From contig NC_092629.1 in the NCBI RefSeq assembly GCF_039555335.1, forward strand, positions 27,738,775-27,802,774: 64,000 nt of DNA, in the 5' to 3' direction. Source of the DNA: Amphiura filiformis (Eukaryota; Echinodermata; Ophiuroidea; Amphilepidida; Amphiuridae). The position numbers and the translations under genes were made by a program. Within the stretch, counting starts at the first letter, position 1, and every line of letters begins with the position of its first letter. This document shows, piece by piece, positions 1,261-23,459 of this stretch. Below the pieces are notes generated by a model. That model made no database searches and was not told the DNA's origin. It worked only from the letters and a program-made list of their open reading frames with translations.

Positions 1261-1261
1261 T

Positions 1262-1760: not shown

Positions 1761-1817
1761 CAGTATTACGAGGGACCACCTGCTTAGGAGTCGTTCCTGG
1801 AGATGGGGTTTCTTCAC
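1761..1817 (-). CDS. Microexon 20, Lys/Pro/Thr-rich module (57 nt, phase 1-1)
   Basis: The acceptor TTTTATAG precedes GTGAAGAAAC, and the donor GTAAGACATG follows. Read in phase 1 it codes (G)EETPSPGTTPKQVVPRNT. The GxETPSPG opening matches the modules at 7166-7225 and 6754-6819 and less closely those at 2421, 10568 and 13625, so these are duplicated exons. It is the last exon of the gene in the window, and its phase-1 end requires further exons to the left of base 1. No fold is expected; a flexible basic linker is likely. Confidence 0.7.
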
Positions 1818-2420
1818 CTATAAAATAGATGAGATAATGTTTGTATTACTCCCTTAAAATACTGGTATCATACTGATTCATTGAATATTATTACAAGACA
1901 CACATACTGGTTCATTAAATAGTTAGGGTATTTATAAACCTGCTTTAATACAGAAAAAACAAGGGGACCATAATTTGAGATAATGAAGCTACAACTTATT
2001 AGATAAAAGTATGACATATCCAAAAGGTCAAGCGGACATACATAGTATGGGATGGGAACAAATGGCCTCTCAGCAAACATGTAAGAGCTAATTATATGTC
2101 TATGGAGAGAGTCAAGGTGTTGTCAATGGCCTTTGCAGACCAGTTTTTCTGGTGTGTGAATTAAGCATTGATATATTTCCGAAAATAATCGACCATGAAG
2201 TAGCTAGTGTTTCATTATGTCTTCATATAAAGAGTAACTCGGTAGGTACAATGATTGAGAAATTAAGTTCAAAGCGGAGTCAAAGGAGTGTAACCTCCTC
2301 AAGGGTAACTGTGTCATGCAATAAAAATAACATTAATTCATTCTTCTTGAAATTGAAGCATCTACCACAGAATAGAGGTTATAGGTTTTACAGATACACA
2401 TAAAAGTAACATTGTCTTAC
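1818..2420. other. Intron within duplicated exon blocks
   Basis: The 2240-2400 part is the same flanking block seen at 1560-1750, 6020-6150, 6560-6740 and 6970-7140 (TCTCAAGGxTAACxGxxTCATGCA, then a CTTCTTGAAA stretch). No other exon was seen. Confidence 0.55.
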
Positions 2421-2489
2421 CAGTGCTATGCTGCTTTCGCTTAGGGATGACTCGCTTTGGGACAGCTCCTTGAGACGGGGTTTCTTTAC
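2421..2489 (-). CDS. Microexon 19, Lys/Arg/Pro-rich module (69 nt, phase 1-1)
   Basis: The acceptor ATTTTATAG and donor GTAAGACAAT bound an exon coding (G)KETPSQGAVPKRVIPKRKQ followed by HST. It is the longest and most basic of the modules. The intron flanks (GATGAGAGACAT upstream, AAAGTAACATTGTCTTAC downstream on the plus strand) are shared with the other microexons, which supports an origin by tandem duplication. Confidence 0.75.
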
Positions 2490-2584
2490 CTATAAAATAG
2501 ATGAGAGACATGTTCGTATTACTACCTTAAAATACTGGTATCATACTGGTTCATTGAATAGTTAGGCTATAATAAATAAACCTA

Positions 2585-3735
2585 CCCTGAACCAAATAAA
2601 GCACATTAGAAATGTACTTTATCTGTACTTTAAGGGTACTTTAACTGTACTTTCTGTTAATTAGTACATATAAAGTGTACTTTAAATGTGCTTATTTTTC
2701 ATATCCTGGAAAAACTGTGTACTTTAAAGGTACTTCAAATGTGCTTTATATGACTTTAATTATACTTCATGAATATTTGGATAAATATGGGAAATTTTTT
2801 GTGCTTTAACTATACTTTATTTGGACTTAGTTTTTTCCCAGTGTCAGTGAGTATACTTTAATTGTGCTTATTTTGGACTTAACCAAATTTTGAACATCAG
2901 TGTGTACTTTAAATATACTTTATCAGTACTTTATGTATACTTTACCTGGATTGGTTTTCCCCGGTATTGTCAGCAATGTAAGAGTACTTAAAATGTGCTT
3001 TTCAGTGCACTTTAATGTACTTTAATGTGGTCATCATGGTCATGTGACGTTTACATATACAAGTCACATGACTACATTCTTCTAGATTTGAAAAATACCA
3101 ACGGCCATCTTGTGCTAAGGTTGCATATTGCAATGGATGTATAAAACTGTTCATATTTATATAAAATGAAGGACTTAATGGACTTACAAATACAGGCTTG
3201 ATTACAGGAGATAGTTACTGGTAATGTATGCTTGCATGTGACATACTTGTGTTACCAATACTTTGATAAGCTCCATATGTGGTAAGCTAGAAGCTTACTG
3301 GTATATGGTATGGAACCTCGTTAAGCACAGTACTTTAAATATGCTTTTTTCAGTATGCTTTAAATGTACTTTTCTATTCATTGTGCTTTATTTGTACTTT
3401 AAAGGTACTTTATTGTCGTTCCAAATGTTGCACATTGGAATGTTGTTTAGAAAGCATATTTAAAGCACAGTGCTTTAAATATACTTGTTTTGGTATAAAG
3501 TATAATTAAAGCACAGTACTTTAAATATGCTTGTTTGGTATTAAGTACAATTAAAGTACAGTACTTTAAATGTGCTTTTTTTCAGTGTGCTTTAAATGTA
3601 CTTTTCTGGTCATTGTGCTTTATTTGTACTTTAAAGGTACTTTATCATCGTTCCAAATGTCGCACATTGGAATGTTGTTTAGAAAGCATATTTAAAGTAC
3701 AGTGCTTTAAATATGCTTGTTTTGGTCTAGGGTTG
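2585..3735. repeat. AT-rich satellite with TACTTTAA-type units
   Basis: About 1.1 kb is built of recurring variants of GTACTTTAAA and GTGCTTTAAATGTACTTT spaced 10-25 bases apart. A larger internal unit is duplicated: about 3318-3490 and 3550-3728 match closely, sharing CGTTCCAAATGTxGCACATT and GAATGTTGTTTAGAAAGCAT. Open frames at 3263-3463 and 3535-3759 arise from this duplication. It lies in an intron of the CARD-CH gene. Confidence 0.8.
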
Positions 3736-4476
3736 GTAAATATTTACTACCATAGATGAATTTAGCATAAAAAACGATTTTACTGTGGTTCTTAAGATAT
3801 TTTTGTAAATCCCTACAAAAATAGGGGGTGGAGAGTGATCCTAAACTAAGGGTCTGTTGGTGTGAGATTTTACATCATAAACTTGTACTGGTGGCATTAT
3901 GCTGAAGTTATAAGTGAAGATGCATTGAGTTCAGTTTGTTTTCATTATATTTTGAAGCTTTTTTGAAGTTTTGAAGCCGCCCTTTGAAAGCCCAGGCACG
4001 CCACTGTTTTCTAATGTTTTTGTTTCATGAAAATCCTTACTTAACTACAATTAAGCAACCCTTTGATGACTTTGAATATTTTTTGACATATTATAACAAT
4101 GATAATTTTCAAGTTTAAGAAAATATATAACCAAATTTACTTCAGATGACTTCCATTTAAATTTTAATGCAAATTTGAAAAGAAGTGACAGATCATGGAT
4201 GGTACACAAATACCAAATTGTGACACAGTCTATTTGTTATCTATAATTCTTGGCTATTTTGAACAGAAACAAGATGTAAAATTGAACTTGCTGCTTAAAC
4301 AACAAAGTACAAAAGAAATGGAAGTTTCAACGTATCTCAAATTGAACTGACAAATGACATACTTTGTTTAATTGTGTCATAATCGTGTAAAATGAAACAT
4401 TGAGTATGAAAATTTATCAAAATCACACAGTTTTGTTTGAATAGAGAAACCCTAAATAAGAATGCCTGCAACTTAC
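3736..4476. other. Intronic, nothing recognised
   Basis: AT-rich sequence with no exon-like open frame bounded by splice sites and no clear repeat structure. Confidence 0.4.
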
Positions 4477-4506
4477 CAGCAGCAGTGAGTTTTCTTTTAG
4501 GTGAAT
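4477..4506 (-). CDS. Microexon 18, ten-residue module (30 nt, phase 1-1)
   Basis: A strong polypyrimidine tract with acceptor TTTTTGTAG precedes ATTCACCTAAAAG, and the donor GTAAGTTGCA follows. It codes (D)SPKRKLTAA and keeps phase 1 on both sides, so it fits between exons 17 and 19. Its flanks lack the duplicated block around the other microexons, so it may be an unrelated or older exon. Because it is so short, transcript evidence would be needed for certainty. Confidence 0.55.
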
Positions 4507-4599
4507 CTACAAAAACAAAGAAGCAAACACAAATTCATATTGGTTAATTGACATACTCAATTCTCAGACAATATATTTTAAAAAGGAATCATGCATGCA

Positions 4600-5040
4600 G
4601 GGACATTGCCAGGGGGAGCCCCCTCCCAATAAAATGAGGATGGCAAAGAGTAAAGTGTCCTTAAAATGACTAAAAATGGGACACAAAATTGACAAATATG
4701 GGACAAAAATTTGGCTTTGCCCCCTCACACTGAAATCATGGCTACGCTACTGGAATCAAGACATCCAAGCTCCAGATTTCTCATTACTAATCTGAGCGTA
4801 GCGAGCACCAAATTGTGCATATTTGAAGATTCTGTACTGAAGCCTTTGTAAGCATGTGTTATGTAAAAAGGTAATCGGTAAAATATGTGCCAAAAATTGC
4901 TTCCCCCCTTTCGACCTGCCAAAATTGCTTGTCCCCCATTTTGAAATGCCAAAAATTGCTTTTCCCCCTTTTCGCTTGCGAAATATTCTTTCCCCCTAAT
5001 TTTACCCTCAAAAGGGCTCATACTTAGGCCTGGGTGCTTA
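4600..5040. repeat. Dispersed repeat: TGGGACAAAAATTTG segment plus CCTGCCAAA units
   Basis: The part 4840-5030 shares the TAATCGGTAAAATATGTGCC stretch and the CTGCCAAAATTGCTTG units with 640-790. The minus-strand open frame across it (4725-5135) is not coding. Confidence 0.65.
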
Positions 5041-5487
5041 ATCTCACCGATTAACTCTGCGGCGTGCCCGCAACCCAAGCCGCAGACCCACGCCGATGCT
5101 AAGAAATAAAATACTGTTGCGATATGCACTAACAAAATGTATGTCTGCCCGATGAAAAGCCATGTTCAGTCACCCGTTCATCGGCTTGATTGGCCCAACT
5201 CCTACATTTCTCGCAACCGGCTTATAACACTTGACAACAATACCCTTACAAATTAGTGTCCTTGAGTGCATTGATTCTTTGCGGATTATATCAACTGATC
5301 CATAAATTGCTCACGGTGAGTAAACTCAAGTAAGTACTACAATAAACATTAATATAAAGGTTTTGAGTAATATGAATGGCAAACCGCAGAGCAAGAAGAT
5401 GGCAAGATGTTGCAAACTCGATACCCATAACTGCTCGCGAATTCGCAACCAGGGATATGGCCACACTATATTAATTCGTCGCCGTAC

Positions 5488-6190
5488 TTTCTGATGTTGC
5501 ATCTTCATTTCAACTGACTACTCACCACCAAAGCAAAAAAAAACAAAAACCAACAACAAATTGCATATAACAAATTTTATTCATAGTTAGACTACCTTTT
5601 GAATATTATCTAGTTTCAGGCAATGTTCATTATCTTGGCTGACTCTGATATTGTTTATGTTTTCTTGAGACATGTACATGTATAATTGTCACAAAATTTA
5701 ATCATGAGATTTGATTTCTTTGAAATTGTGTGGTGTTTATGTCAAGCTATGGAAGGCCGATGAGGAAGGGGACGTTCACCAATATCTTGGACTAATGACG
5801 TGAAGCTGGTTTCTAACCAAGGAATACAAGGTGCAATGCACTTGGCATCAGATCAAGTGAGATGGCGTACTCTTGTGAAGACCACAGCAGCGCTACAGAG
5901 CGCCACCTGACACACACAGAGAAAGAGAGAGAGATGTCAGGCTAATCACAGAGTGCACCTTCTGTAACATTTCAAAAATTTAATCTGAATTGTATAGTTT
6001 GGAATACCTGCAAAGATGGGATCTGAATGAGAAATTAATTTCAAGGCAAAGTCATGAGTGTAACCTTCTCAAGGGTAACAGAATCATGCATAAAAGTAAC
6101 ATCAATTCATTCTTCTTGAAATTGAAGATCTACCACAGATGTAGTCCTCAGCTTGTGTTCACAAAAGAAGAAGTTCATTGAATATTAATA
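5488..6190. repeat. Segmental duplicate, copy b, lacking its microexon
   Basis: This matches 1262-1760 in order and strand, with a retroelement tail inserted at about 5738-5940. At 6160-6180 the sequence jumps from the upstream flank straight to the GTTCATTGAATATTA flank that lies beyond exons in other copies, so the microexon has been lost from this copy. Confidence 0.7.
5738..5940 (+). mobile_element. Fragment of a non-LTR retrotransposon, 3' end of the ORF (dead)
   Basis: The plus strand at 5836-5910 reads MHLASDQVRWRTLVKTTAAL and then QSAT and stop, resembling the D/R-x-W-R-x-L-V tails of LINE-type reverse transcriptase ORFs. The preceding stretch (VKLWKADEEGDVHQYLGL) has an in-frame stop and fits the same class weakly. 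It interrupts the segmental duplicate and is absent from copy a. The family assignment is a guess from the tail motif. Confidence 0.4.
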
Positions 6191-6753
6191 TAAGAAATAT
6201 TATAAGAAAAAACAAAACCAGATCCATAATTTGAGATAATGGAGCTACAAGTTATTAGATAAGAGTATGACATAACCAGAAGGCCCAAGGGACATATATT
6301 TAACTCATGTTCTCTCAACATACATGCAAGAACTGTTTTATGTCTATGGCGAGAGCTCTGATGTCACCTTTGCAGACAAGTTTTTCTGCAGTGTGAAGCA
6401 TTAACTGATAATACTTATGACATATTCAACCATGAAGCAGCTATGTCGTTGCTAAATACAGACTCTGAAAATATAACTTTTTAAGCTACAAGTATATGAA
6501 GCAGCTAGTTTTTCTAATATCTTATCATATATTAGAGTACACAATTGAGACTCCAGGTACAATGATTGAAAAATTAAGTTCAAGGTGGGGTCATGAGTGT
6601 AAGCTTCTCAAGGATAACTGAGTCATGCAATAAAAATATCATCACTTCATTTTTCTTGAAAGGGAAGTGTCTAGAATACTATAGTCACCAGCTTGTATTC
6701 ACAAGATGTTAGGTTTAACAAATATATTTAAGAGTAACATGGTCTAAGCTTAC

Positions 6754-6819
6754 CATAACGTGTTCCAGCAGGTTTAGGGCCCAGTTTAGGGACTTTTCCT
6801 GGAGATGTGCTTTCTTTAC
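6754..6819 (-). CDS. Microexon 17, Lys/Pro/Gly-rich module (66 nt, phase 1-1)
   Basis: It is bounded by an acceptor ending CTATAG and the donor GTAAGCTTAG. It codes (G)KESTSPGKVPKLGPKPAG and then TRY. The V-P-K-x-x-P-K spacing recalls elastic PEVK-type linkers of titin relatives, but that comparison rests on composition only. It sits inside the 6560-6850 duplicate block. Confidence 0.7.
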
Positions 6820-7165
6820 CTATAGGTTAGATGAGAGACATATTGTTGGATCTATATATTACTATCTTAAAATACAAGTTTTTCTGCTGTGTGAAGCAGC
6901 AAATAATCAGCCATGAAGTAGCTAGCTTTTCTATTTATCTCTTCATATAAAGAGTACAAATTTGAGAAGAAATTGACTTCAAAGTGGAGTCGTAAGTGTA
7001 ACCTTCTCAAGGATAACTGAGTCATGCAATATAATTAACATCACTTCATTCTTCTTGAAAGTAAAGTGTCGACCCACAACAGAATATAGTTCTAATCTTG
7101 TATTCACAAAATATGAAGATGTTAGGTTTCGTAGATATGTTTAAAAGTAACATGCATGGTCTTAC

Positions 7166-7225
7166 CAGTACTGCCTTGGGTTGGTCTTGGCAGGACAGGT
7201 TTGGCTGGAGATGTGGTTTCTTTAC
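7166..7225 (-). CDS. Microexon 16, Lys/Pro-rich module (60 nt, phase 1-1)
   Basis: The acceptor ATTTTATAG and donor GTAAGACCAT flank (G)KETTSPAKPVLPRPTQGST. It follows directly on the FN3 exon 15, which ends in phase 1. The surrounding block 6970-7270 repeats the flanks of exons 17, 19 and 20. Confidence 0.75.
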
Positions 7226-7563
7226 CTATAAAATAAATGAGAGACATGATGTTTGTACTACTACCTTAAAATACTGGTATCATACAATAATTATAATATA
7301 CCTGATTAAAGAAGGAAAAAAACCAAGAGGAACGACAACTGAATCATGCATAAAAACAACATATATTCATTCTTAAGACGATTGGTTGAACGAACCATGC
7401 CAAAGCCCAAATACTCAAAACAACATCATAACAATGGCATCAAATCAACAATTTTGTTTGAAGAATTAAACCCGGTTATATTTAAATAATAAAACCTTAT
7501 TTTACCATGTTCATGGTTTGGTGGCAATGAAGGTTGTGAATTTTAACTCTTGTGAACTCTTAC

Positions 7564-7714
7564 CAAATAATGAATAAGGAGGTGGTTCTTTAGCTGTAAT
7601 TATATCTACTGCTGCACTTGCTTCTCCAACACCTGCGGCATTCACAGCTCGGATACGAAATTGGTACCGATTGCCTGGAGTCAGATTCTTAATGGCATAA
7701 CTGCTCTCACACAC
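7564..7714 (-). CDS. Exon 15: second half of titin-type FN3 domain
   Basis: It starts in phase 0 after an acceptor ending GTTTAG and ends in phase 1 before GTAAGAGTTC. It carries the C-terminal FN3 hallmark: a SYAIKNLTPGNRYQFRIRAV stretch followed by NAAGVGEASAAVDIITAKEPP. Tyr in YxFRIxA, the NAAGVG turn and the final strand are those of titin, twitchin and myosin-binding protein C FN3 domains. The tail PPPYSLFG leads into the Lys/Pro modules. Together with exon 14 it makes one complete FN3 (residues about 722-825). Confidence 0.9.
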
Positions 7715-8045
7715 CTAAACATTTTATTCAATTAGGAAAAAACAGAGAGTGTTATATGTATCACAATCTGATACAATCACAAGTTATAGGGTCATAGGCC
7801 AACAATTAGAGAGTTATTTATGCAGTAAAGATAGTGGCAGCATGAATGATAGGAATTTGATGTATTTTTGCCTAATTTGTAAAATAAAATGAATGAATGA
7901 AATAAATCCTTCATTCTAATTCCACTAAATCACCCAATGTGACTGAAAGACATATATATTTGCCAACATGCAGTTTGGCACAGAGAGTAATCTCCTTTTC
8001 ATAGATATGCTACACATTGAAGTTGGGATACTGAAATATATAATG

Positions 8046-8791
8046 GTGCATTTAGACGAGGAGACTTTGTGAAGCGAGTCGCTCTGGAATGTCTCCTCTG
8101 CCAGAATCGCCTCATGTAAACTCAGTGTTGAATGGGTAGTTAAGGACCAAAGAGGGTTACCAAGCGAGTTGAACCAGAATAGAACATGCTCTATTCTGAA
8201 GCGACTCGGAAGGGTCCCAAGTGGGCATATCAGTTTCACAACCAATGGGGTGCAGTGACTAGGGCAAAGGGACAATCTGGTCAGTATTAATAATAAATAA
8301 CATCGTGAAATACAATAAGTAGGCCCAAGCATTACCATGAGACAAATTCACTCAGTTTTGTATCTGAAGTAATAGGGTCAAGCATGGGATACAACACCAT
8401 TTGCAGATGATGAAATTGAGATTAATAAACAGTATGTACAGCTATAAAGAAACTGTAGGCCTATACAGATTTGACCAGTAACAATTGACCCATCTGATAT
8501 ATTTTGTTCACATTCATTTTCTCATAAAACACATAATATGCCAGCTAAATACTTATCCACTAGTGTTCTCAAAGGTCTATTTAACCCAGACCTCAGGAAC
8601 TAACAAGTTGTTTGGTTGTGAAACTTTGAAAACTTGATTTTTTGGGGACTGTCCCTTTACATCCATTGTGCTGAACTGGTAATCACTTTTTGGTAGTTGA
8701 CTCGTCTAAACTCAACTGTTGATTGTCACATAAATCTTGAAAACCCAGATGTTTATTCGTAAGCGACTCAAGTCTCCTCGTGTAAATGGAC
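8046..8791. mobile_element. Inverted-repeat element, about 745 bp, intronic
   Basis: The left end GTGCATTTAGACGAGGAGACT is matched in reverse by AGTCTCCTCGTGTAAATGGAC at the right. Internal GCGACTC/GAGTCGC words recur in both directions. A third, weaker copy of the end lies near 8565-8600, so a nested insertion is likely. No transposase-like open frame was seen. Confidence 0.55.
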
Positions 8792-8847
8792 TTTGAGAGC
8801 ACTGTTTACACATTTGCCCTCACTCAAGGGAAATGTAAAAAACTAAC

Positions 8848-9020
8848 CTTCTTGTTCACTTGAGACCAATTTCCTTTACTGATGTCACATTTCTCCACGA
8901 CATATGCTGTCACTCTAAACTTGCCACTCTCTTGGTTTCCTTCAGGAGGTGACCAGGTAAGCTTTACACTTGTCTTATCGATGTTCACAGCATTAGGGGT
9001 ACTTGGTACACCAGGAAGAT
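8848..9020 (-). CDS. Exon 14: first half of titin-type FN3 domain
   Basis: Phase 1 in, phase 0 out; the donor is GTTAGTTTTT. It reads DLPGVPSTPNAVNIDKTSVK and then LTWSPPEGNQESGKFRVTAY and VVEKCDISKGNW. The W-x-P-P, Y-V-V-E-K and following Trp are the N-terminal FN3 signature of titin-like proteins. The split between exons 14 and 15 falls between strands E and F region, a common FN3 intron position. Confidence 0.9.
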
Positions 9021-9613
9021 CTAATACATTCAAATCAAAGAAGATTATAAAGGGAATTAACTCAATTTGTCATTGAATCAAATCGTTGTAAATTTGTGTA
9101 ATTCTTGCAAATGAATTTTTAAACACCTTAAAGTAAACCCAATCTGCTAATAAATAGGTTATACAGACAACAAGGTCACTATTTTTTCTTTGACATTTCT
9201 GAAATACAACCTCAAAAATTGTTGAGAGAAATTAAAGCTTTAAGATAGGAGGGGGAAGTGTTGAGATGTTGGTTGATCATCTCAGCTAAATTACATCTTG
9301 ATCTTGATTTAAAAGGATTTATTTCATTAACTTTTGTCATGCTCTCTCCTTGTACCATTGTCTTTTTGCGTTTATTGGGGTGCCAAATCCTTATCCAATC
9401 AAATTAATCGTGCCCACACACCATAAATTAGATAAAAGGAAATTTTAATTTAATTTTAAGTTACAACTGGCAACACCAGGACATATCAGGAAGAATGAAA
9501 AGATTAATTTGGACTGAGAAAAAAGGAGAAAACACAGAAAGAGAGCGATAAAGAGGGAAGTGAACACATATCCTACAAGGATATATATAGCATTAGCTTT
9601 AAATATTTCTTAC
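9021..9613. other. Intron, nothing recognised
   Basis: No exon, repeat or regulatory signal was recognised. Confidence 0.4.
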
Positions 9614-9982
9614 CCAATTTCACAAGTTTTTCTTCAGCCTGTTTGAACTCTGCTTCATCTATCTTGGTCTTAATTTTTATACCCACTTCTTCGCCAATTA
9701 CGTCCTTTGTAAGCAATGCCCTATCTAGTTGTTTGTCCAAAGAGCTGTCTTCAGTACTTTGGAAAGTATCTTTTAGAACTATGACATCTGCACATTGGAC
9801 ACTATACTGGATAGAACCAGCAGGAATTGTAATGAACTTCACCAATGTACAGCCAAGAGGATTGAACGTATTGTTGACTAAGTTGGACAAGATTTGAGGC
9901 TTTAACATCTGTGAGAAGATTGTATCAATCATTTTGAGGTGGTCTACACTGCTTCCTTGAAGATCCATTTTTATTTTGATGT
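9614..9982 (-). CDS. Exon 13: unassigned domain, about 123 residues, single exon
   Basis: A symmetrical phase 1-1 exon of 369 nt with acceptor ATTATTCTCAG and donor GTAAGAAATA. It opens DIKIKMDLQGSSVDHLKMID, has a central LGCTLVKFITIPAGSIQYSV run followed by QCADVIVL, and ends IKIKTKIDEAEFKQAEEKLV. Alternating hydrophobic strands and amphipathic helices suggest an alpha/beta fold. The layout (hydrophobic strand-Gly, helix, L-G-C-x-L-V, A-G-S-I-x-Y-x-V-x-C, helix, then I-x-I-K-T-x-I-D-E) resembles what I recall of TRADD-N-like modules found beside death folds in invertebrates. That is a weak recollection, not a match. A whole-exon, phase 1-1 domain is typical of shuffled modules. Confidence 0.7.
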
Positions 9983-10567
9983 CTGAGAATAATAAAAAAA
10001 ATAGTAACATGTTGGAAACTAAATTGATCATTTAAAGGTGACTTATCCATAACAAGTCATAAATAACATCAACCGGAGAGTGACAACAAAGGGTTTTACA
10101 AAAGGCAGCAGTTCCATACAACGAAATAAACAGCACAAAATGAAAGTACACACTGTCTTTTTTGGAGGGTCATAATTCTTTAAAACATGATTGACTGATT
10201 AACATTGAAACTGATATGCTAAGAATGCTACCTTGCATTTGATATACCTCGTTAAACATTTTCCGGGAAAAATTTATATGATTTGAAAGTTGCAAATTAT
10301 TTAGCTAAGTAAGATTTTTTCCCCGGGATGTTTAAGTTGCCTGAAGTGAGCGAGCAGAAGTTTGCATAATTTTAGCTAAATTTGGATTGCGCATGATTAG
10401 TAATATCAAATAAGACTTATATCAAATACTGCAAGTGTATCACAGATGTGAGAGATCGAGTCATTTTGAATGATTTTAAGCAGCCTTTGTATTCTGTTGT
10501 CAGTCTTACAGGTTATGATTTACGGACAAATTTTTAATTTTGAAAGTAACATGGAACATGATCTTAC
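9983..10567. other. Intron, nothing recognised
   Basis: The final 40 bases share the AAAGTAACAT microexon flank; otherwise no feature was recognised. Confidence 0.4.
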
Positions 10568-10618
10568 CATATTGTGTTCGTTTAGGGACATCCGCTTCTG
10601 AAGCTGTACCTTTGTTAC
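10568..10618 (-). CDS. Microexon 12, basic module (51 nt, phase 1-1)
   Basis: It codes (G)NKGTASEADVPKRTQY between an acceptor ending CTATAG and the donor GTAAGATCAT. It pairs with exon 11 at 13625: both end VPKRT-x-Y and share flanks, including the retroelement fragment about 130 bp away, so the two are duplicates of one block. Confidence 0.7.
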
Positions 10619-13624: not shown

Positions 13625-13672
13625 CATAACGTGTTCGTTTAGGGACCGCTCCTGGTGCTGTATTTTCATTAC
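13625..13672 (-). CDS. Microexon 11, basic module (48 nt, phase 1-1)
   Basis: It codes (G)NENTAPGAVPKRTRY, bounded by an acceptor ending CTATAG and donor GTAAGACAAT. It is the first of the short modules in reading order after the 38-residue basic exon 10. Confidence 0.75.
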
Positions 13673-14103: not shown

Positions 14104-14217
14104 CTTTAGGCCTAGGTCTCTTGCGTGGTTCATGCACTACATTAGCTTTTCTTGGTCCATCTCCTTTGGTCACTTCTAAAGCTTCTGGTTGGCTAAATTT
14201 AGAGTGTAGCTTTGGTT
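14104..14217 (-). CDS. Exon 10: basic, proline-containing linker (114 nt, phase 1-1)
   Basis: The acceptor ATATTTACAG and donor GTAAGACGGT bound it. It reads (E)PKLHSKFSQPEALEVTKG and then DGPRKANVVHEPRKRPRPK. The RKRPRPK end is a run of basic residues that could act as a nuclear-localisation or phospholipid/actin-contact patch; this is composition-based inference. It follows the second CARD and opens the modular linker. Confidence 0.75.
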
Positions 14218-14817: not shown

Positions 14818-15180
14818 CGTGCACAGGTATACTGTCAGCAAGGTACTCGACTGGTGCAAAGTACCTCACAAAGTACCAACAGTGCTACTGCACAGGACCC
14901 ACCAGCAGTTGCATTGCACTGGTACTATACTGGTACTCCCCTGTACTGTACACACTATGAAGTTCATTTGTCAAGATTTAGTTCATATTCTGACGTTTTC
15001 TTGACCATTTCTTGACTTTTCTTAACTATTTCTTTATAATTCAAATAAAGAAGTCAAGAGAAGTCAAGATATTGTCAAGGAAATGTCCAAATCTGAACTA
15101 ATGAATTTCCTAGTGACAATACCGCCAAGTACTTTGGCGACATTGTACCTGTACAGGCAGCCCCAATAGGAATCTTGTAG
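14818..15180. repeat. Dispersed repeat family (inverted partner 19597-19775)
   Basis: The segment with CTACTGCACAGGACCCAC and GACTGGTACTCCCCTG-type words occurs in reverse at 19597-19775. Its middle (14960-15110) holds an inverted pair of CTTGACTTTTCTT/AAGAGAAGTCAAG words. The relation suggests a fold-back element family within introns of this gene. Confidence 0.55.
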
Positions 15181-15217
15181 TGTATGACTTAACAAATTAA
15201 AACAAGGAACTTCATAC

Positions 15218-15502
15218 CTTTGGTAAATTCACATTCTATATTAACAACTTCCCTGAATAAATCATCACGTTCTTTACGCAGTGCTGACATAAAAACAAAA
15301 TATGCTTTTGCCTCTTTTAAGCCTTAATGTTTCCAGCAAAAATCAACCTTCTCTGAAAAAGCTTGTATGCTTTTTATTTTCTGCTTGTCAGCAAAGGTGA
15401 GCATGCGCCGTGCATACATGTTTTCAATGACATAATAGGGATCCAAAAAGCCGCAAAGTTTTTCTGTAGCTTCCATAAGTATAGCCCTAATGTTCCTCAA
15501 GT
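15218..15502 (-). CDS. Exon 9: second CARD-like domain with compensating frameshifts and in-frame stop
   Basis: The 285-nt exon runs phase 1-1 between acceptor TTATTACAG and donor GTATGAAGTT. It reads DLRNIRAILMEATEKLCGFL, DPYYVIENMYARRMLTFADK and QKIKSIQAFSEKVD, then after a disturbed stretch YFVFMSALRKERDDLFREVV. It aligns position by position with the exon-1 CARD (ILxExTxxLC, L-x-x-x-D-x-Q-K-I, E-K-V, F-M-x-x-L). Literal reading gives a TAA at 15326-15324. Between an A-run at 15338-15342 and a T-run at 15315-15318 (plus strand) the alternate frame resembles the helix-4 sequence of CARD1, so a one-base loss and a one-base gain seem to have occurred. Sequencing error, an allele, or decay of the domain would all explain this. 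Confidence 0.7.
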
Positions 15503-16350
15503 CTGTAATAAAAACATATCGAAATAATAAGTAATAATAACTATATGCAAACTACAGTTACGATGAAATTTCAAGTTGACAATGACAAAATCATTGAAAA
15601 GTGAAGAGGGGGGGGGGCGCTTGAATTGACCAATTCAGCATCGATTCTGCGCCCCTTCTAGTAAAAAGAAAGTCAAACTTTTGTGGGCTTCACATGCATT
15701 TCAGCACAAAATCACTTGAAAGATCAATTTAAGACCGATATTCAACTTCATTAAAAAGTAATGAGTTATAGGCCCCATTTGTGCAATTTTTCGCGCAATT
15801 TCAACCAAATTTTCTCCTAAATATAAAAGGAAATGACTATTTTAAACTGACCAACAATTAAGAAGTAAATATCTCTTGAAATAATTTTACAAGAGGGAAA
15901 TGAAAATCAAGGATTTTACTGTAGCCTATGTTGGGACTCAACCACCCCCTGGTCATCTGTGCTGGTCGGTCCTACCCCGGGGAAGGGGCTGGCCGGGGGT
16001 AAAATCTTATCACTAAAATAAGCGCAAAGGATGGATCTACGATTGGTAAAGAAACACATTTTTTTTATGACAGATGAAAAGCTTTAGTTCTCACGGTTAA
16101 CCCACTTTTGATGCACTTTGGGGAACATATTGAGAAAAATATGGACTCATTTCCACTAATACTGAAATCACAGTCTTGGCACAATAAAGTGGGGATAAGT
16201 TTGATGATTGGAACATCTTACTTTAAAGCTACAGATTGGAATTCTCTGATTCCCAGGAAAATGGTAAAAGAGTAACATGATGAGTAGGTGTAAATTTCAC
16301 CTTGAGCATATGTCTTTACACCCTAACATTAGTAGGACTACAACTGGTCA
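15503..16350. other. Intron, nothing recognised
   Basis: AT-rich with short homopolymer runs (a G run near 15607); no exon was seen. Confidence 0.4.
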
Positions 16351-16459
16351 GTTTTCATTTCCACATCTGTTTGTTCAAGTGATATGGGTTTTCATTTCCA
16401 CATCTGTTTGTTCAAGTGATATGGCTTTTCATTTCCACATCTGTTTGTTCAAGTGATGG
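16351..16459. repeat. Three tandem copies of a 35-44 bp unit
   Basis: The unit TTTTCATTTCCACATCTGTT plus TGTTCAAGTGATATGG is present three times in a row with almost no divergence, so the expansion is recent. Confidence 0.9.
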
Positions 16460-16529
16460 CTTTAAACAATTTAACTTCATAATATATAACTGCTTCAAAT
16501 GCCCAGGGGGCACTTCAATTTGAAATGGA

Positions 16530-17030
16530 TATAGGTGCAGGGCTGACACTTACAGGGGATTCGGTGAGAGCAAAATGTAAAAAATGTGGGGTCACTGGGT
16601 GAGAGCATGATTTTTGGCATTTGGTGAGAGCAAAATGAGAGGGGATTTGGTGAGACCTAAAATATAAAAAATATGGGGTCATTTGGTGAGAGCATGATTT
16701 TTGGCATTTGGTGAGAGCAAAATGTTAAAAATATGAGGTCATTGGGTGAGAACATGGCCTATATTTTTAATGGAACCTTTGGGTGAGAGCCAAAACAGTG
16801 CCACAGAAACCTGATGAAACATTGAATTTCTAGTTTTAAATGGTTTAAAATGGCTTTGTTTTTTCAAAATAAGTAACAAAATATGTGATAAATACAAGTT
16901 GCTGTTTAAATTGAAAAAATAAGGGTCTTTGGGTGACAGATCAAATGGGAAAATATAAGGTCTTCGGGTGATGTGTTCAGTAAACAAATATATGGGGTCT
17001 TTGGGTGACAGCGACGCTGAAAAGGGGAGT
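16530..17030. repeat. GGTGAGAGC repeat (inverted relative at 38440-39100)
   Basis: Words such as CATTTGGTGAGAGC, AAAATATGGGGTCATT and TTTGGGTGACAG alternate across about 500 bp. The left edge GCTGACACTTACAGGGGATT has an inverted counterpart at about 39060-39100. The minus-strand frame running on from the FN3 exon into this stretch is not coding. Confidence 0.7.
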
Positions 17031-17100
17031 CGTAACATCCCTACATGCGTGTCACCTCCAAAGTGGGAGTGCCCCCAGGTTAAAATGCATGTAAACTTAC

Positions 17101-17434
17101 CAAGGTTTGGTGTTGTTATGGCCAAATCAGAAAGAGGACTTATGGGCCCATACTTGGAACCATCATGCAGACCTCGCACACAAAAGGCATACTGTTGGTA
17201 GTGATCTAACTCCTTTACTGTACAGGTAAATATACTGTGAGGAATTTGATCAGGATGCTTTTTCCAGTGACCAGCTGGTCCACCTGCACGTCTACCTGCA
17301 CCTTCTACATACTCCACCTGGTATTCATATACAGGCTGTATTACTGGTCTTGGTCTATGGCACCAGTTTACTGTCATCTCTGTAGTTCCAATATTCAGTT
17401 CATTTACAACAGGTTTTCTTGGTCCAATTGGTAC
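17101..17434 (-). CDS. Exon 8: complete FN3 domain in one exon
   Basis: The 334-nt exon has phase 0 in and phase 1 out, acceptor TTCCATTGCAG and donor GTAAGTTTAC. It opens VPIGPRKPVVNELNIGTTEM and TVNWCHRPRPVIQPVYEYQV, and its second half has IFTCTVKELDHYQQYAFCVR and GPISPLSDLAITTP. The Trp of strand B, Y-x-V-E-Y of strand C, and V-K-x-L-x-x-x-x-x-Y-x-F of strands E-F identify FN3. An unusual Gly/Arg-rich loop (about residues 372-384: VEGAGRRAGGPAG) lies after strand C. It directly follows the CH pair. Confidence 0.9.
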
Positions 17435-17819
17435 CTGCAATGGAATAATAAAAAATATTTCTGCCCACTCTCCACATGATTGGAGAATATAATAAGGTTT
17501 TAAATATATGGGTTTGTAAAAATGAAAAGGTGCTGAAATGTTTCAAAATGTTGAAAGGGGGCCAAATAATATCAGGCACATTGGGAGGCTAGGCGATTTT
17601 TGCCAGATAATTTTGGGAATTCACCCTTTATGCATAATGAAACTAATAAAATACACAAGACGGCAAAACATTGATAAAAGTATACTGAATACAAAATGTA
17701 ACTGCACATTAAAAACAAAGCAATTTCTTAAAGACGCTAAAACTAATAAAGTTGTCAATATAGATGGAGAATTTTGTTCTATGTACATTTTGATACCTCA
17801 TTCGGCATGATTTATTCCA

Positions 17820-18148
17820 TTAAGGGGTACTACACCTGACCAATTTTATGCCTATTTTTGCATTTTTCTCAAAAGGTATAGCACATTGGTGACAAGTAAG
17901 ATATGTATATTATAGTGGCAAGGACTACAATTACTGCACTGAAAATTCAACAACTCAAGGCTAGTAGATCAAATATTGGTTTTCCCTCATTTTCAACTGT
18001 TGTCTGTGCTGAAATACAATTTCCAGTGCAGTAGTTGTAGTCCTTGCCCCTATAATATACATATCTTACTTGTCACCAATGTGCTATAATTTTGGAGAAA
18101 AATGCAAAAATAAGCACAAAATTGGGCAGGGGTGTAGTACCCCCTTAA
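17820..18148. mobile_element. TTAA-flanked palindromic miniature element, 329 bp
   Basis: TTAAGGGGTACTACACC at the left is mirrored by GGTGTAGTACCCCCTTAA at the right. Complementarity extends inward through CACATTGGTGACAAGTAAGA and GGACTACAAxTACTGCACTG, so most of the element is one long hairpin. TTAA at both ends would fit a piggyBac-type target duplication, but the terminal bases are not diagnostic. It lies in the intron between exons 7 and 8. Confidence 0.85.
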
Positions 18149-18606
18149 GCTATAATATGCATTTGTATGACAAAGTTCTAATTTGAAAAGTGAATTTGGA
18201 TATTTTCTTCAAGGAGGTTTCTGCATCCTTTTGCATTCCCATTGGCCTGTAACTTTTTGGCATGGCTGGTAACTTTTCTGACTGACATCTAGTTGCCGCC
18301 CAGCTGACCGGTAACTTTTAAGGTCATGCCCGGCTGGCCTGTAACTTTTTGAGGCTTATTTCAAACACTGCTTTTGTTACGGGTTCATAACAGCCTGACA
18401 GATGAATGCTCACTTCACTATGTTTGATATCTGCATGCTGCTGAGGAAAAGGTTGATGTAAATTTTTGTCACTTTCAAATAATTCAAATTACTATAAGTT
18501 GAGGAAATAAAGTTGTATCATGCCGATTAGGCAGAACAAAACTCTCCATCTACAATGCAATTTAGAAATACACAAACCAAGAAGGGTTGTAGAAGATCAC
18601 ACATAC
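18149..18606. other. Intron, nothing firm
   Basis: GGCCTGTAACTTTTTGG-type words recur three times at 18240-18350, suggesting a small degenerate repeat. No exon was seen. Confidence 0.4.
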
Positions 18607-18699
18607 CTCAGTTTCAGTGCATGAACAAAATTGAGCCAGATATGCCATCACACATATTTCATCTGCTTTTCCACTCTGCATATCACTTGCTGTAATGAC
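18607..18699 (-). CDS. Exon 7: C-terminal end of CH2
   Basis: A 31-codon phase 0-0 exon, acceptor TCTCAATAG and donor GTATGTGTGA. It reads VITASDMQSGKADEICVMAY and then LAQFCSCTETE. Family knowledge: filamin CH2 ends with a V-I-T-P-x-x-x-x-x-x-x-x-x-E-x-x-V-M-T-Y-L-x-Q-F pattern, which this matches closely, including V-M-x-Y-L-x-Q-F. Confidence 0.88.
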
Positions 18700-19431
18700 C
18701 TATTGAGATATAGCAATAAAAAGAAATGAAAATAAATTGTTCAAATGGTTATCTAATATTACTCAGTATACAAATATTTATTAGGACAAATGGTAAGAAT
18801 ATTGTCATGAGGTGAAATATGGACTTTTCCATTCAAATATGATGCTTTGCTGAGTTGAATGGAACAGTAGATATTACAACGAATGAAAATTTCTTTCAAT
18901 TGGACAACTAAAAACATTCAATATTTGTTGTAGTAACGCATAATCTGTTTTCACCTAATATGTATAACATCAGGAAAACAAAATAAATATCTACATTATA
19001 TCTATTTTAGAAGTAACACCCGCACCTAGTATTGGCAAGTCGAGGGGGTCATTTCGAACTCTACGCTCATGTTTAACAGTGTTGTCATGGTAGCTGCGCA
19101 TGAGTGCAATAGATAATAGACTGTTACACTCACGGAGTGCAATAGTGTTTTGCAAAAAATAACAAAACTAATCAATAGTAATTGACCAATCAAATGACAA
19201 GAATCTTTGTAAGAGTAATATAAATTGAATTATTTACCTCCGACTGACTTTCTGTTCTAGCTAAATTTATCAGACAAATTAAACACAATTAAAACAAAAT
19301 CTTAAAAAGCTTGAAAATTATAACAGTTTTTGAAAAAGCAAAAGTTGTCAGTCAAATTCAATCCAGTTCTAGATCACATGTCTTGCCCCTAATTTCAAGA
19401 TATCACTTTCAAGAATACTGCATAACCTAAC
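18700..19431. other. Intron, nothing recognised
   Basis: No exon or ordered repeat was recognised. Confidence 0.4.
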
Positions 19432-19529
19432 CTGTGCTATTTGAAGCCAGTCTTCTGCCATCTTCATTGCTTCTTCTATATTCCGTGTAGCATAATCTTC
19501 TTCCCAAGATTCCCAGTCACAACATGCTC
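19432..19529 (-). CDS. Exon 6: CH2 middle
   Basis: Phase 1 in, phase 0 out; acceptor AAAAATCAG and donor GTTAGGTTAT. It reads (G)ACCDWESWEEDYATRNIEE and then AMKMAEDWLQIAQ. The C-x-D-W-x-S-W and A-x-x-x-A-D/E-D-W-L-x-I motifs are those of the filamin family CH2, and the run-on to V-I-T in exon 7 is in frame. Confidence 0.9.
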
Positions 19530-19596
19530 CTGATTTTTTTTGAATGAAATAACAACAACAAAACACAATATTACTCAACACATTTTTTTTCTCAAA

Positions 19597-19775
19597 CATA
19601 CCACAAGATACTTGGCTGGTACTGTGCAGAACCAGGGGAGTACCAGTCTAGATACGTACAGTCTTGTGGGTCCTGTGCAGTAGCAGCATTGGTACTATGT
19701 GGGTACTTTGTGTGCACCAGATACCTAGGCGACAGTGTACCTGTGCAGGCGGCCGCAACCCGCAATAGTCATCTT
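19597..19775. repeat. Dispersed repeat, inverted relative of 14818-15180
   Basis: It shares GTGGGTCCTGTGCAGTAGCA (reverse-complement form) and GGGGAGTACCAGTCTA-type words with the 14.8-kb segment. Both sit in introns of the same gene. Confidence 0.6.
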
Positions 19776-19807
19776 ATGAGACAACTAGTTGCTTTAAGGT
19801 TACTTAC

Positions 19808-20047
19808 CAGGAGCAAATTTATTCACCAAAGCACCAATAGCCTTTCCATCAGTCCAGTCACTAGTAAAATTTGTGATATAGCAGCTTGGAATCTGCCCCT
19901 GCACCCAGGAAAGCAACTGGTCTCTTCTACTTTCCTTTGTCTGTGAAGCATCAGCTTTGCTCCCAAATGTTGTAAAACTTAAAAATAGTTGCTGCATCAC
20001 TGTTAGCATCACTGCTTTTTGGTTAACTGAATCCACCTCTTTCTTTC
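19808..20047 (-). CDS. Exon 5: end of CH1 and start of CH2
   Basis: A 240-nt phase 1-1 exon, acceptor TATGTACAG and donor GTAAGTAACC. The N-terminal part (VNQKAVMLTVMQQLFLSFTT) fits the last helix of a CH1 domain. The rest, RRDQLLSWVQGQIP and ITNFTSDWTDGKAIGALVNK followed by FAPG, is a textbook filamin CH2 start (L-L-x-W-I/V-Q, I-T-N-F, D-W-x-D/S-G-x-A-x-G-A-L-V). Between exon 4 and this last CH1 helix about 35-40 residues expected in a full CH1 are missing. Confidence 0.9.
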
Positions 20048-20116
20048 CTGTACATAAAATAATAATAAGTGTTGTGAATATATAATATAATAATAAATAT
20101 CTATACTTAGTATGCT

Positions 20117-20740
20117 TCAGAGGGCATGTGTGGTCTAGCAGTAGAGCACAGGCCTCACAATTGTGAGATTGTGGGTTCAAGCCCCGATGTGGCCATGTGT
20201 GTACTTGTGCCCCTGAGTAAGGTGCTTTACCGCAAATACTCCTCTCTATCTGACCAGGTGTATAAATAGGTACCAGCATTCTTCATTGCTGGGAAGGTAA
20301 CATGCAGACTCCAGACCTGCCAATCTACAGAAATCAGAATGAGGGACATTGAGACCAAAACCTTGTACATGTACACAAACCAGGTACCGACAAATTCAAA
20401 GACTTGAGGTGTGCAATACTTTCAGAATTCAGAGAAGGTTTTGCAGGTCTGAATTTATCACAATAGACTAAAGAGAATGCTATAGCAAATTTCAAAGTGA
20501 CATTTTCATCATTATCTGCTGTTCTTACATTTAAATTTGCCATCACTGAAATTTTCAGAAAACAGGACTGTCCCTCATTTTCACTTTGGTAAACCCCAAA
20601 TGAGGGACAGTCCCTCAAAATGAGGGACAGTTGGCAGGTCTGAGACTCGCTGTGGAAGATCCCCCACAGTAACATTACATGGAGGATCCGGAGTCTGGCA
20701 ACAATCGCCAATGAAAGAAAGATGGGCGCTCCTTCACTGT
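20117..20740 (+). mobile_element. tRNA-derived SINE, split by an inserted element
   Basis: The head carries a pol III box A-like TGGTCTAGCAGTAGAGC and a box B GGTTCAAGCCC (about 20171-20181), 45 bp apart as in tRNA genes. The body has CCTGAGTAAGGTGCTTTACC and CCAGGTGTATAAATAGGTACC-type sequence seen in many animal SINEs. The SINE is interrupted at 20312-20642 and resumes at 20643 with GCTGTGGAAGATCCCC. It lies in the intron between exons 4 and 5. Confidence 0.8.
20312..20642. mobile_element. Miniature element, 331 bp, with AGACTC target duplication
   Basis: It begins CAGACCTGCCAA and ends TTGGCAGGTCTG (perfect terminal inverted repeat). AGACTC stands at 20306-20311 and again at 20643-20648, so one six-base site was duplicated on insertion. 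Inside, TGAGGGACAGTCCCTCA words form hairpins. Removing it restores a continuous SINE. Confidence 0.88.
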
Positions 20741-20964
20741 TTATAGGCTTGCCTCCTTTTTTTTATATACTTAGCATGATAGGAATAATAATATACAAAT
20801 CAAGGAGATATGATATTAGACAACAGGATATCACCGTTACATATTTGCAACTGTTTCTACCATGTTTTAAACTCTACTCAATATATTTTAAACAACAACA
20901 TTTCCACTGAATAACACATGACTACTTCTTATACCTATATCTATACATTTTGATATCTATGTAC

Positions 20965-21122
20965 CTTTCTGCAACAAAACTTCAATTAAGGCAGTCAGTT
21001 TAGGTCCATCCCAGAAGTCTTCTTCCAAATTGTCAATCTGCTCATTGGCATCATTCAGCTGTGTGTTAGCCCATTTTGTAAATGTCCGAATCAATATATC
21101 TTCCTTTTCATTCAACTGTTGG
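20965..21122 (-). CDS. Exon 4: first half of CH1
   Basis: Phase 2 in, phase 1 out; acceptor TAATATTTCAG and donor GTACATAGAT. It reads QQLNEKEDILIRTFTKWANT and then QLNDANEQIDNLEEDFWDGP, KLTALIEVLLQK. The T-F-T-K/R-W-x-N, I-x-N-L-x-x-D-x-x-D-G-x-x-L-x-x-L-I-E-V-L pattern is the actin-binding type 1 CH domain of filamin and alpha-actinin relatives. Confidence 0.9.
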
Positions 21123-21459
21123 CTGAAATATTAAGAATAATTGACCAAAACTTTCAAACAACCTTTAACATAAGTCATTATTACATGAACTAGAGAGTAA
21201 TGTGAAAAATCATCAACATTTTGCTCTTGGAACCACAGAATATCGACAAATCAAATAGTCTACAAGAGGTTTTGAATTTAGTATACAGGAAGGTCCTTCA
21301 GCGGTGTCCACCTGCTCTTCCTAATTATCACGTCAAAAGAACTAGGTGATACGGAACTATATACAGCTTGATCGGCGAATGAGATGTGATGATGACTTGA
21401 TTCAATTAGCCAATCATAACCCAGCTTGAACTTCCGTACTTTATGTAAATTATACATAC
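21123..21459. other. Intron with dispersed repeat at 21355-21440
   Basis: GCTTGATCGGCGAATGAGAT and ATTCAATTAGCCAATCATAA recur near 60145-60210, marking a dispersed repeat. Confidence 0.5.
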
Positions 21460-21522
21460 CTGCTAGATAAGCCAGATTGGTCTAAAGTCTGATTTGTAGC
21501 TTCATCAGCAGCGGCACCATAA
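21460..21522 (-). CDS. Exon 3: Ala/Ser linker (63 nt, phase 2-2)
   Basis: Acceptor TATAATTTAG and donor GTATGTATAA. It codes (H)YGAAADEATNQTLDQSGLSS, a polar linker joining the CARD to the CH pair. It is supported mainly by phase agreement with exons 2 and 4 and by good splice sites. Confidence 0.65.
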
Positions 21523-21774
21523 CTAAATTATAGAAATTTTCAAAAAATAACAGAAATAAAATAAAATAATTATTGCAATTCTTATTTAACAGTATTACTT
21601 AACACTACCTAAAAGTTTTCAACATTGGGGGGCTATGCCTCCCACTTTAACAAACTCATAATGTGCCGTGTGTCACAGGTCTGGGTGAACATAAATAATT
21701 AATTCTAGGCTCTGAAAGAAAGTGTAAAAATAATGAACCAAATGACTTCAATTGGACCTCCATTTTGGAAAATT

Positions 21775-22025
21775 ATTCAACCCCCTGTGTATGGATGAAC
21801 AAATCGACTTTTTTCGCTTCTGCTTTGGGCACCCAACAATATATGTTTAAAGCAATCATTTATACAATAATAGTGAAAACATGTCCACAAATGGCTTAAT
21901 TCATCCTTCATTTCACCAATATTTGGGTTTTTCAAACTAAAATTGTACATATTGTACTGAAATGGTCCAACAAATGGCTTCAATTGGGCCTTCATTTTAC
22001 AAGGTTTCTCACAGGGGTGCACATT
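21775..22025. repeat. Dispersed repeat (relative at 29690-30075)
   Basis: Words such as AAATGGCTTCAATTGGGCCT, CATTTCACCAAT and TTTCAAACTAAAATTGTAC occur in the same order at 29720-30020. The minus-strand frame here is not supported as coding. Confidence 0.6.
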
Positions 22026-22507
22026 CCCCTAAACACAAACATTTTCTACACCCACCACTGACTGCACCCCCCCTTTCAAAATCATTCCACCGCCACTGAT
22101 ATCACATTTCATACTTTAAAAACGGAAATAAAAATAATATACATACATTGTAAGGTGACAAAAAATCCCTATTCAACATGCGGATGCACTTTCAAAGAAG
22201 TGTCAGTCGGTATGGATATTTTTAGTTTTTCTTAGGATAACTGATCCTATATCATAGAGAGCTTTAAAAATCTTGACAGTTTTTGCAAACATATTTGAAA
22301 AAAAAAAAACTTTCTCATATATTTGAATATGTTCTAATTTTTTCTTCAAAAACTGTCAGTCCAAATCAATCCCCTTTGGGCAAATAACAGCTGTTATTAC
22401 TTGCACACGACTAGCACCCACCAACTCCCCCTTGCAAGATCTGGATTGGTCAGGACCATAGAACAGGGGGACTTTTTGTCGCCTAATAATAACTTTGGTA
22501 AACTCAC
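22026..22507. other. Intron, nothing recognised
   Basis: AT-rich, with TTTGACAG/CTGTCA words near 22270 and 22350 forming a loose inverted pair. No exon was seen. Confidence 0.35.
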
Positions 22508-22526
22508 TGTTGGGCAGCAGGTGGAT
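22508..22526 (-). CDS. Exon 2: 19-nt microexon (phase 1-2)
   Basis: The acceptor TTTCTTCTTCAG has a strong pyrimidine tract and the donor GTGAGTTTAC is near-consensus. It codes (N)PPAAQ(H). Its odd length converts the phase 1 of exon 1 into the phase 2 required by exon 3, which is the best evidence that it is real. Confidence 0.6.
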
Positions 22527-23158
22527 CTGAAGAAGAAATTGAAGGAAAAGAGAAATTTAGATTAATGTCCTCATCACTGTGTTGAAAATATTACAAAGGA
22601 GTCTAAAGTTCATTACCCAGTGCAGTACTTTGAGTTAACGAGGTGCTCGTATAAACACTACAAAATTAGAATGTTGTAAACATCACTGTAGTAAATTGTA
22701 ATTACACATTATTTAAATATATATGTTATCATTTGAAATTTCAGCATTCAAAGAAAGTTACTTGGCATGCCATTAATAACATACTTAGATGCGCTAAAAA
22801 TAATTGTAACCAAACAAAGTTTTTAAAATATTAGATGATTCAATTAATAACAGCATGATCCTCAAGAAATATCAAATTTTAATTGTTTTTTAAATATCGG
22901 GCCTGAAATTGCCGCTAGAATTGGCAATAAATATCAAGAATACCTTGAATACCCATTAAACAAAAATATGTATATTTGAGAACAAAATTATTAAAATAAT
23001 TGACAACTTTGATCATAAGCCCAGGTCATGATGGAACATGATAGAATGATTTTGAAAATGGGTTGGACCCAAAAATTCTTATTCAGCACCCTAAGAAGTA
23101 CATATAAAAGAAACATTTTCAAAACTTTGCCCCGCGTGAGACTAATGGTATACTTAAC
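22527..23158. other. Intron 1, nothing recognised
   Basis: AT-rich, with no repeat ends or exon signals. Confidence 0.4.
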
Positions 23159-23450
23159 TGTAATTGTGCTTTCCCTCTATGACTTTCACCTTCCTATGGA
23201 GATGTTTATCTACTTGCTCCAAAGTCTCCATAAATAAAGCATACTTAGATTCAGGCTTGAAACGTAGTTGATCCAGCAACGCTATAACTTTCTCTGCATC
23301 TGTTTTTTCACTCGTTATTTTCTGGACATCGTCTTTATCTAGTACACCGTTCTGTTGTAGACAGATTAATATTTTTTCCGGCTTCAATTTATCACATAAA
23401 ACGTTTGTAGACTCTTGTAGAATAACTTGCATAAGCTTTAAATTTGCCAT
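23159..23450 (-). CDS. Exon 1 (coding): N-terminal CARD-like death-fold domain
   Basis: The start ATG at 23450-23448 has A at -3 and G at +4, and lies 7 nt inside an exon that follows the acceptor AAATTCAG, so a 5' non-coding exon is upstream. It reads MANLKLMQVILQESTNVLCD, KLKPEKILICLQQNGVLDKD, DVQKITSEKTDAEKVIALLD and ends FMETLEQVDKHLHRKV plus a short tail. L-x-P-x-x-I, N-G-V-L-D-x-D-D-x-x-K-I, K-V-x-x-L-L-D-x-L and F-x-x-x-L spacing over about 88 residues is that of a caspase-recruitment domain. The donor GTTAAGTATA gives phase 1. A second, out-of-frame ATG sits at the exon's first base and could reduce initiation. A DD or DED is a less likely alternative. Confidence 0.75.
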
Positions 23451-23459
23451 GATGCATCT

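Follow-up and report, generated by a model that had tools for sequence, protein, structure and literature searches.

A seemingly undescribed architecture of CARD, CH and FN3 domains in predicted proteins of the ophiuroid Amphiura filiformis

Does the genome of the ophiuroid Amphiura filiformis encode a protein that joins two CARDs to a filamin-type CH module and titin-type FN3 domains, and, if so, what might such a protein do? The question is raised by the left part of a 64,000-nucleotide stretch of contig NC_092629.1 (positions 27,738,775 to 27,802,774; the whole stretch is hereafter called the window), for which a preliminary description had proposed 20 minus-strand exons with agreeing phases. 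We were able to rebuild this chain, with residue numbers equal within one to those given before. It runs from 23450 to 1761, totals 2,770 nucleotides, has AG/GT borders (start exon excepted) and follows one continuous phase series. The joined frame encodes, in order, a CARD (residues 1-98), a CH region with a shortened CH1 and a CH2 of filamin type (approximately 125-321), an FN3 domain (322-433), a second CARD (433-528), a lysine/proline-rich (Lys/Pro) part, an orphan domain (599-722), a titin-type FN3 domain (722-830) and further Lys/Pro modules (Table 1). With a probability of roughly 0.4, we read the window as carrying one copy of a duplicated A. filiformis family of cytosolic CARD/CH/FN3 scaffold proteins that works in the way proposed below.

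That the gene belongs to a family is established. Searches of protein sets returned six members (P0001-P0004, P0006, and P0007), all of them A. filiformis predicted proteins; these searches reached a limited length range and proteins sharing short words with the query, and absence elsewhere is not proven. CARD, CH, FN3, and a second CARD do occur in one protein, as had been proposed, in predicted proteins of this species including the 1490-residue P0002, which has nine fn3 stretches and two CARD stretches, and both P0001 and P0002 share the domain order of the window. Identity to the window model is 85-95% for five relatives and 65% for the diverged P0002, which lies on a record of 65,321,293 bases, the other five being on a record of 97,728,240 bases. 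Window exons 6-8 and CARD 2 up to an in-frame stop (discussed below) are identical to P0006; when P0006 was compared with window positions 23450-15327, the CARD 1, linker, CH1a, and CH2a exons agreed at 77-94% and the micro-exon was identical. No second copy of CARD 1 was found in the window by tblastn. Of 7,993 candidates scored in a profile search, 17 had E <=0.001. Six of these are the family; no CARD is listed for the remaining 11, which, five nameless ones apart, are named as titin, filamin, spectrin or CH/FN3 proteins. One of the searches further yielded P0005, a filamin-like transcript protein that matches 24% of the query at 30%. The best reading of these results is a lineage-specific family, seen so far only in A. 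filiformis, whose automatic names (four uncharacterized, one dystrophin-like, and one filamin-A-like) conceal its architecture.

The gene structure is likewise established, with 15 of the 20 exons recurring in A. filiformis predicted proteins. The last five exons of the chain (Lys/Pro modules m7 and m6, the stretch 4506-4477, and modules m2 and m1) occur in no relative's model, and 4506-4477 is our guess for the twentieth exon of the preliminary description. The start given there, 23457, comes after a possible acceptor, and an in-frame start codon was found at 23450 instead. Exons 2 and 3, between CARD 1 and CH1, were found because relatives carry the corresponding residues, and a CARD-1 donor at 23190 was replaced by that at 23159 once the micro-exon was found. 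A 42-residue candidate exon for the middle of CH1 (20545-20420, phase 1-1) was dropped, as the five relatives that span this region join the flanking exons directly. The Pfam and PDB domain searches used an earlier join without exons 2 and 3 and with this wrong exon; the domain assignments are independent of it because raw frames and relatives show these domains too. Beyond m1, the gene may continue past the left window edge.

Domain searches with hidden Markov models, suggested earlier as a check, placed CARD, CH, and fn3 over the Pfam cut-offs in the joined exons, and the domain identities are established at this level. CARD 1 matched PF00619 at 40.5 bits against a cut-off of 23.9, so that the exon-1 domain is a CARD as judged by its sequence; alone against PDB sequences it showed weak likeness to RAIDD (0.012) and CARD9 (0.04). 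The window CARD-2 exon, searched with its stop as X, matched no Pfam family. P0001, P0002, and P0004 each have a second CARD stretch better than E 0.1, CARD 2 of P0003 alone reaches 21.1 bits, under the cut-off, and the second CARD of P0002 is similar to those of CARD9 (3e-5) and APAF1 (9e-4). Homology of the two CARD exons, which had been read from their alignment with each other, is borne out when CARD 1 of the window is aligned with the uninterrupted CARD 2 of P0004, with a score of 103 versus at most 50 in 500 shuffles, the pair being scored with that domain and not with the interrupted one of the window. When a model of CARD 2 from an intact relative was compared with structures preselected by Foldseek, 48 of the 50 rows shown were CARDs or CARD-bearing chains and the other two were a FAS/FADD death domain and a designed protein; as modelled, this CARD 2 has the six-helix death fold of CARD type. 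In the P0004 model, the CARD 1 region has helices at residues 3-95 with a block predicted local distance difference test (pLDDT) of 40-85, and the CARD-like fold rows cover CARD 2 only. With the full model, the actin-binding domains of filamin A/B headed the Foldseek list, at a query TM of only 0.12, and CARDs appeared at probabilities close to 1, none of them at E <=0.001. No clear acidic/basic pairing was seen between CARD 1 and CARD 2 (net charge 0 to +1 and -3 to +2, respectively).

The CH region passes Pfam at 3.6e-22 in the joined protein, and filamin A/B actin-binding domains fill the top nine rows of its PDB search, the first at 2e-40. The "filamin-type CH pair" of the preliminary description stands for CH2, which is complete and of filamin type, while CH1 is without approximately 40 middle residues. 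Specifically, window CH1 matches filamin B residues 22-64 and resumes at 118, with only 13 query residues between, a gap that presumably corresponds to helices D to F in the usual helix naming. By alignment and inspection, the shortening is common to the window and all five spanning relatives (P0001, P0002, P0004, P0006, and P0007); P0003 starts later. According to the part of PMC7360965 consulted, utrophin and filamin A work locates F-actin binding in CH1.

The FN3 domains reach 4e-22 with Pfam fn3 in the joined protein. Titin rows are the best PDB matches of the second FN3 (9.5e-88 summed over eight FN3 domains of one chain, and 9.6e-14 for a single titin FN3), which is split over two exons in phases 1-0-1. 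Between 13.7 and 1.7 kb, and only there, the Lys/Pro exon and its flanks were found in six copies, every one on the minus strand and with an exon length of 48-69 nucleotides, always a multiple of three. Across 15 pairs, which are not independent, gap runs divisible by three numbered 21 of 25 inside the exons; in the flanks they were 21 of 62 (upstream) and 16 of 49 (downstream), a contrast that supports coding use. Modules m13 and m10 are found in P0001 and P0003.

Further, the orphan domain, encoded by a single exon, is 97-98% identical to P0001/P0003 and 71% to P0002, and a homologue search (205 candidates, limited length range) returned three proteins, all members of its own family. Nothing exceeded the cut-off in Pfam (CdiI at 0.079), and PDB sequences gave no match. 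Its model, of low confidence (pLDDT 51), has two helices, three strands, and two helices; Foldseek with it found no significant fold match (best E 0.24), and from present data the domain is not callable as a new fold. The C-terminal parts of the relatives vary. P0002 continues after the second FN3 into further FN3 domains, and P0003 has a third FN3 and then a TRIM2-type NHL propeller (residues approximately 702-895; PDB TRIM2 1.5e-16, with Pfam NHL at 17.5 bits against a cut-off of 20). On the minus strand of window positions 1-7500 there was no Pfam match, and neither FN3 nor NHL was seen there. A membrane segment was looked for in the window model and four relatives, and no 19-residue stretch exceeded a Kyte-Doolittle value of 1.41.

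How far do known systems account for this combination? In CH2 and the first half of CH1 the best alignment is to the actin-binding domain of filamin A/B, whereas approximately 40 residues of CH1 are missing and the CH module here sits between a CARD and an FN3; PF00630, the Ig repeat of filamin/ABP280, was not found in the window model or P0001-P0004. With the CARD9/CARD11/BCL10, RAIDD, and APAF1 groups the protein shares CARDs, two of them and of weak sequence likeness, but here CH and FN3 stand between the two. The Pfam matches of the window model and P0001-P0004 include no NB-ARC, NACHT, caspase, kinase, or MAGUK family, and for NACHT and NB-ARC this extends to E 1 in the window model and E 0.1 in P0001-P0004 (sequence within the left edge of the window). 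Titin, myomesin, and myosin-binding protein C have the same FN3 sequence type; in contrast to them, there is no kinase, the window copy has few FN3 domains, and the Ig-named Pfam matches of P0002 overlap its FN3 stretches. The NHL propeller at the P0003 C-terminus, which was not seen in the window, recalls TRIM2/TRIM3, but no RING or B-box is among the Pfam matches of P0001-P0004.

Amphioxus, sea urchin, and other invertebrates have shuffled death-fold genes, according to the parts consulted of PMC2575513 and PMC2246300, and the general kind is therefore already known. The host, too, is an invertebrate deuterostome, where the preliminary description expected a shuffled protein of this class. 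Neither of these two papers has the word "calponin" in its main text, and "CARD", "filamin", "death domain", and "fibronectin" are each absent from that of PMC11310086. No protein with CARD and CH was described in the titles and abstract starts of the literature matches listed (supplements and subscription papers lay outside this scope). That the preliminary description knew of no named match agrees with the literature and database matches listed, among which no named family or publication turned up. The architecture is real and seemingly undescribed, and the family adds an orphan domain for which no relative was found outside it.

As the sequence is read here, it would be plausible for the protein to be anchored to the cytoskeleton and to act in immunity, and a working can be proposed. 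The variable C-terminal modules would bind a ligand or cytoskeletal partner, and the CH module would place the protein on actin structures, or act as a protein contact if CH1 has lost actin binding. The two CARDs, kept apart by the stiff FN3, might pair with each other at rest; once freed or clustered, they could nucleate CARD polymers and so recruit CARD-bearing caspases or adaptors. A more specific version, which we consider quite improbable, is a cytoskeleton-mounted CARD platform whose polymerisation would be gated by actin attachment or tension through the reduced CH module and FN3/Lys-Pro springs, with FN3 arrays, the NHL propeller, and the orphan domain as interchangeable C-terminal readers. 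If true, the platform would represent a sensor class without a NACHT/NB-ARC ATPase switch. In death-fold proteins the usual partners of CARDs are ATPase, kinase, caspase, or coiled-coil modules; a duplicated family with two CARDs, filamin-type CH and titin-type FN3 would tie CARD signalling directly to the cytoskeleton. The host animal is studied for arm regeneration, and the family offers a defined test of whether the state of the cytoskeleton can gate CARD assembly.

Two findings weigh against the proposed working. CH1, the actin-binding half, is shortened in the window and in all five spanning relatives, and the inference that the CH pair binds F-actin is therefore unsafe and anchoring doubtful. 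Moreover, the preliminary description reported no break, whereas the CARD-2 exon (15502-15218) carries an in-frame TAA, and the window copy as assembled would end inside CARD 2. The locus might thus be a truncated or dying copy that yields at most CARD-CH-FN3 and half a CARD, inert or blocking intact relatives, and we hold this to be a serious though tentative possibility. It would fit that P0006 ends at exactly the same stop and that several relatives have broken or partial models: P0001 leaves frame in the second FN3, its ending resembling another frame of the window, and the models of P0003, P0004, and P0007 are partial, so that copies of the family are either error-rich or partly decaying. 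Yet every other exon has an open, in-phase frame, and the six exons further downstream that have counterparts in relatives agree with the best of these at 15/17 to 58/58 residues. The CARD-2 frame shifts and is then restored within approximately 30 nucleotides, the exon length is still a multiple of three, and P0001-P0004 are open there. As far as the consulted text of PMC11310086 goes, the published A. filiformis assembly was built from nanopore R9.4.1 reads and polished with nanopore and short reads, with 0.000683556 errors per base stated for the flye assembly. Over 2,770 nucleotides of exon this predicts approximately 1.9 errors, which makes an assembly error quite possible and a live alternative in spite of short-read polishing; P0006, a database gene model, possibly comes from the same assembly and would then not be independent. 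A base-calling or assembly error and a real break are equally open as the origin of the stop.

The protein could also be a structural cytoskeletal cross-linker of muscle or coelomocytes in which the CARDs only oligomerise, with no immune signalling. Titin FN3 as the best PDB match, the filamin-type CH2, and the duplicated phase 1-1 Lys/Pro exons, which to our mind resemble a PEVK-type expansion, are all in keeping with it. We nevertheless regard it as unlikely: CH1 is shortened, sarcomere proteins do not usually come in several copies of 80-95% identity, and CARDs are present, a domain rare outside apoptosis and innate immunity. Very unlikely, in our estimate, is a division into two genes, or a short isoform, with CARD-CH-FN3-CARD ending near 15.2 kb and the orphan domain and FN3 on another transcript. 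The preliminary description had named an end near 15 kb as evidence against a single gene, and at the level of gene models this is partly seen, as P0004 ends right after CARD 2 by reading into the intron and P0006 ends within CARD 2. In both P0001 and P0002, however, a single protein includes CARD 2, the orphan domain, and FN3, a single protein likewise spans CH2 through FN3 in P0003, and all exon phases agree.

Table 1 Exons and modules of the CARD/CH/FN3 gene in the window (residue counts are matching residues; spanning relatives are P0001, P0002, P0004, P0006, and P0007)
Feature	Position	Strand	Evidence
Exon 1: ATG and CARD 1, residues 1-98	23159..23450	-	Pfam CARD 1.2e-8 in raw frame, 2.9e-10 in joined protein; 89-92/98 with P0001/P0004/P0006/P0007, 72/98 with P0002
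Exon 2: 19-nucleotide micro-exon, linker	22508..22526	-	AG/GT borders; codes for the stretch that reads NPPAAQH in relatives; 7/7 in four relatives, 4/7 in P0002
Exon 3: linker	21460..21522	-	16-17/22 with P0001, P0004, P0006, P0007
Exon 4: CH1, first half	20965..21122	-	tblastn against filamin A CH pair 8.6e-8; 45-51/54 with five spanning relatives
Exon 5: CH1 last helix and CH2 first part	19808..20047	-	tblastn against filamin A 1.2e-12; phase 1-1; 60-72/81 with five spanning relatives
Exon 6: CH2, middle	19432..19529	-	tblastn 8.6e-8; 33/33 identical to P0006
Exon 7: CH2, end	18607..18699	-	31/31 identical to P0003 and P0006
Exon 8: first FN3	17101..17434	-	Pfam fn3 1.4e-4 in raw frame; 112/112 identical to P0006
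Exon 9: CARD 2, in-frame TAA at residue 492	15218..15502	-	
Exon 10: Lys/Pro-rich linker	14104..14217	-	36-37/39 with P0001/P0003
Exon 11: Lys/Pro module m13	13625..13672	-	15/17 with P0001 and P0003
Exon 12: Lys/Pro module m10	10568..10618	-	18/18 with P0003, 16/18 with P0001
Exon 13: orphan domain, approximately 122 residues	9614..9982	-	120-121/124 with P0001/P0003, 89/124 with P0002
Exon 14: second FN3, first half	8848..9020	-	58/58 with P0001; titin FN3 matches jointly with exon 15
Exon 15: second FN3, second half	7564..7714	-	Pfam fn3 4.9e-6 in raw frame; 46/51 with P0003
Lys/Pro module m7	7166..7225	-	Duplicated exon, conserved AG/GTAAG borders, in-frame gap pattern; in no relative
Lys/Pro module m6	6754..6819	-	Same basis as m7
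Possible small Lys/Pro exon (weak)	4477..4506	-	Solely an open, phase-matched AG/GTAAGT stretch; in no relative
Lys/Pro module m2	2421..2489	-	Same basis as m7
Lys/Pro module m1	1761..1817	-	Same basis as m7

Elsewhere in the window, Rfam and tRNA scans found nothing, and the minus strand upstream of the gene (23458-33400) gave no Pfam match. Beyond 33.4 kb on the minus strand, and on the plus strand, Pfam scanning covered eight single open frames of the window. One exon of a HAD-family hydrolase was found at 34650-35285 on the minus strand (HAD_2 5.5e-18); the stretch 38023-38391 on the same strand, without a Pfam match, reads LVIFDKDGT and may be the N-terminal exon of this hydrolase. Degenerate repeats of TTAGGG type, similar to telomeres, form a 1.2-kb array at 28475-29657, which is G-rich on the plus strand and accounts for the GC skew of 0.61 at 28-30 kb. 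Long imperfect palindromes, detected as self-matches in reverse, lie at 48070-48689, 17820-18148, 39341-39582, and 54866-55120 and are perhaps fold-back transposons. Finally, 35321-36218 and 36484-37316 form a local direct duplication with 92-94% identity.

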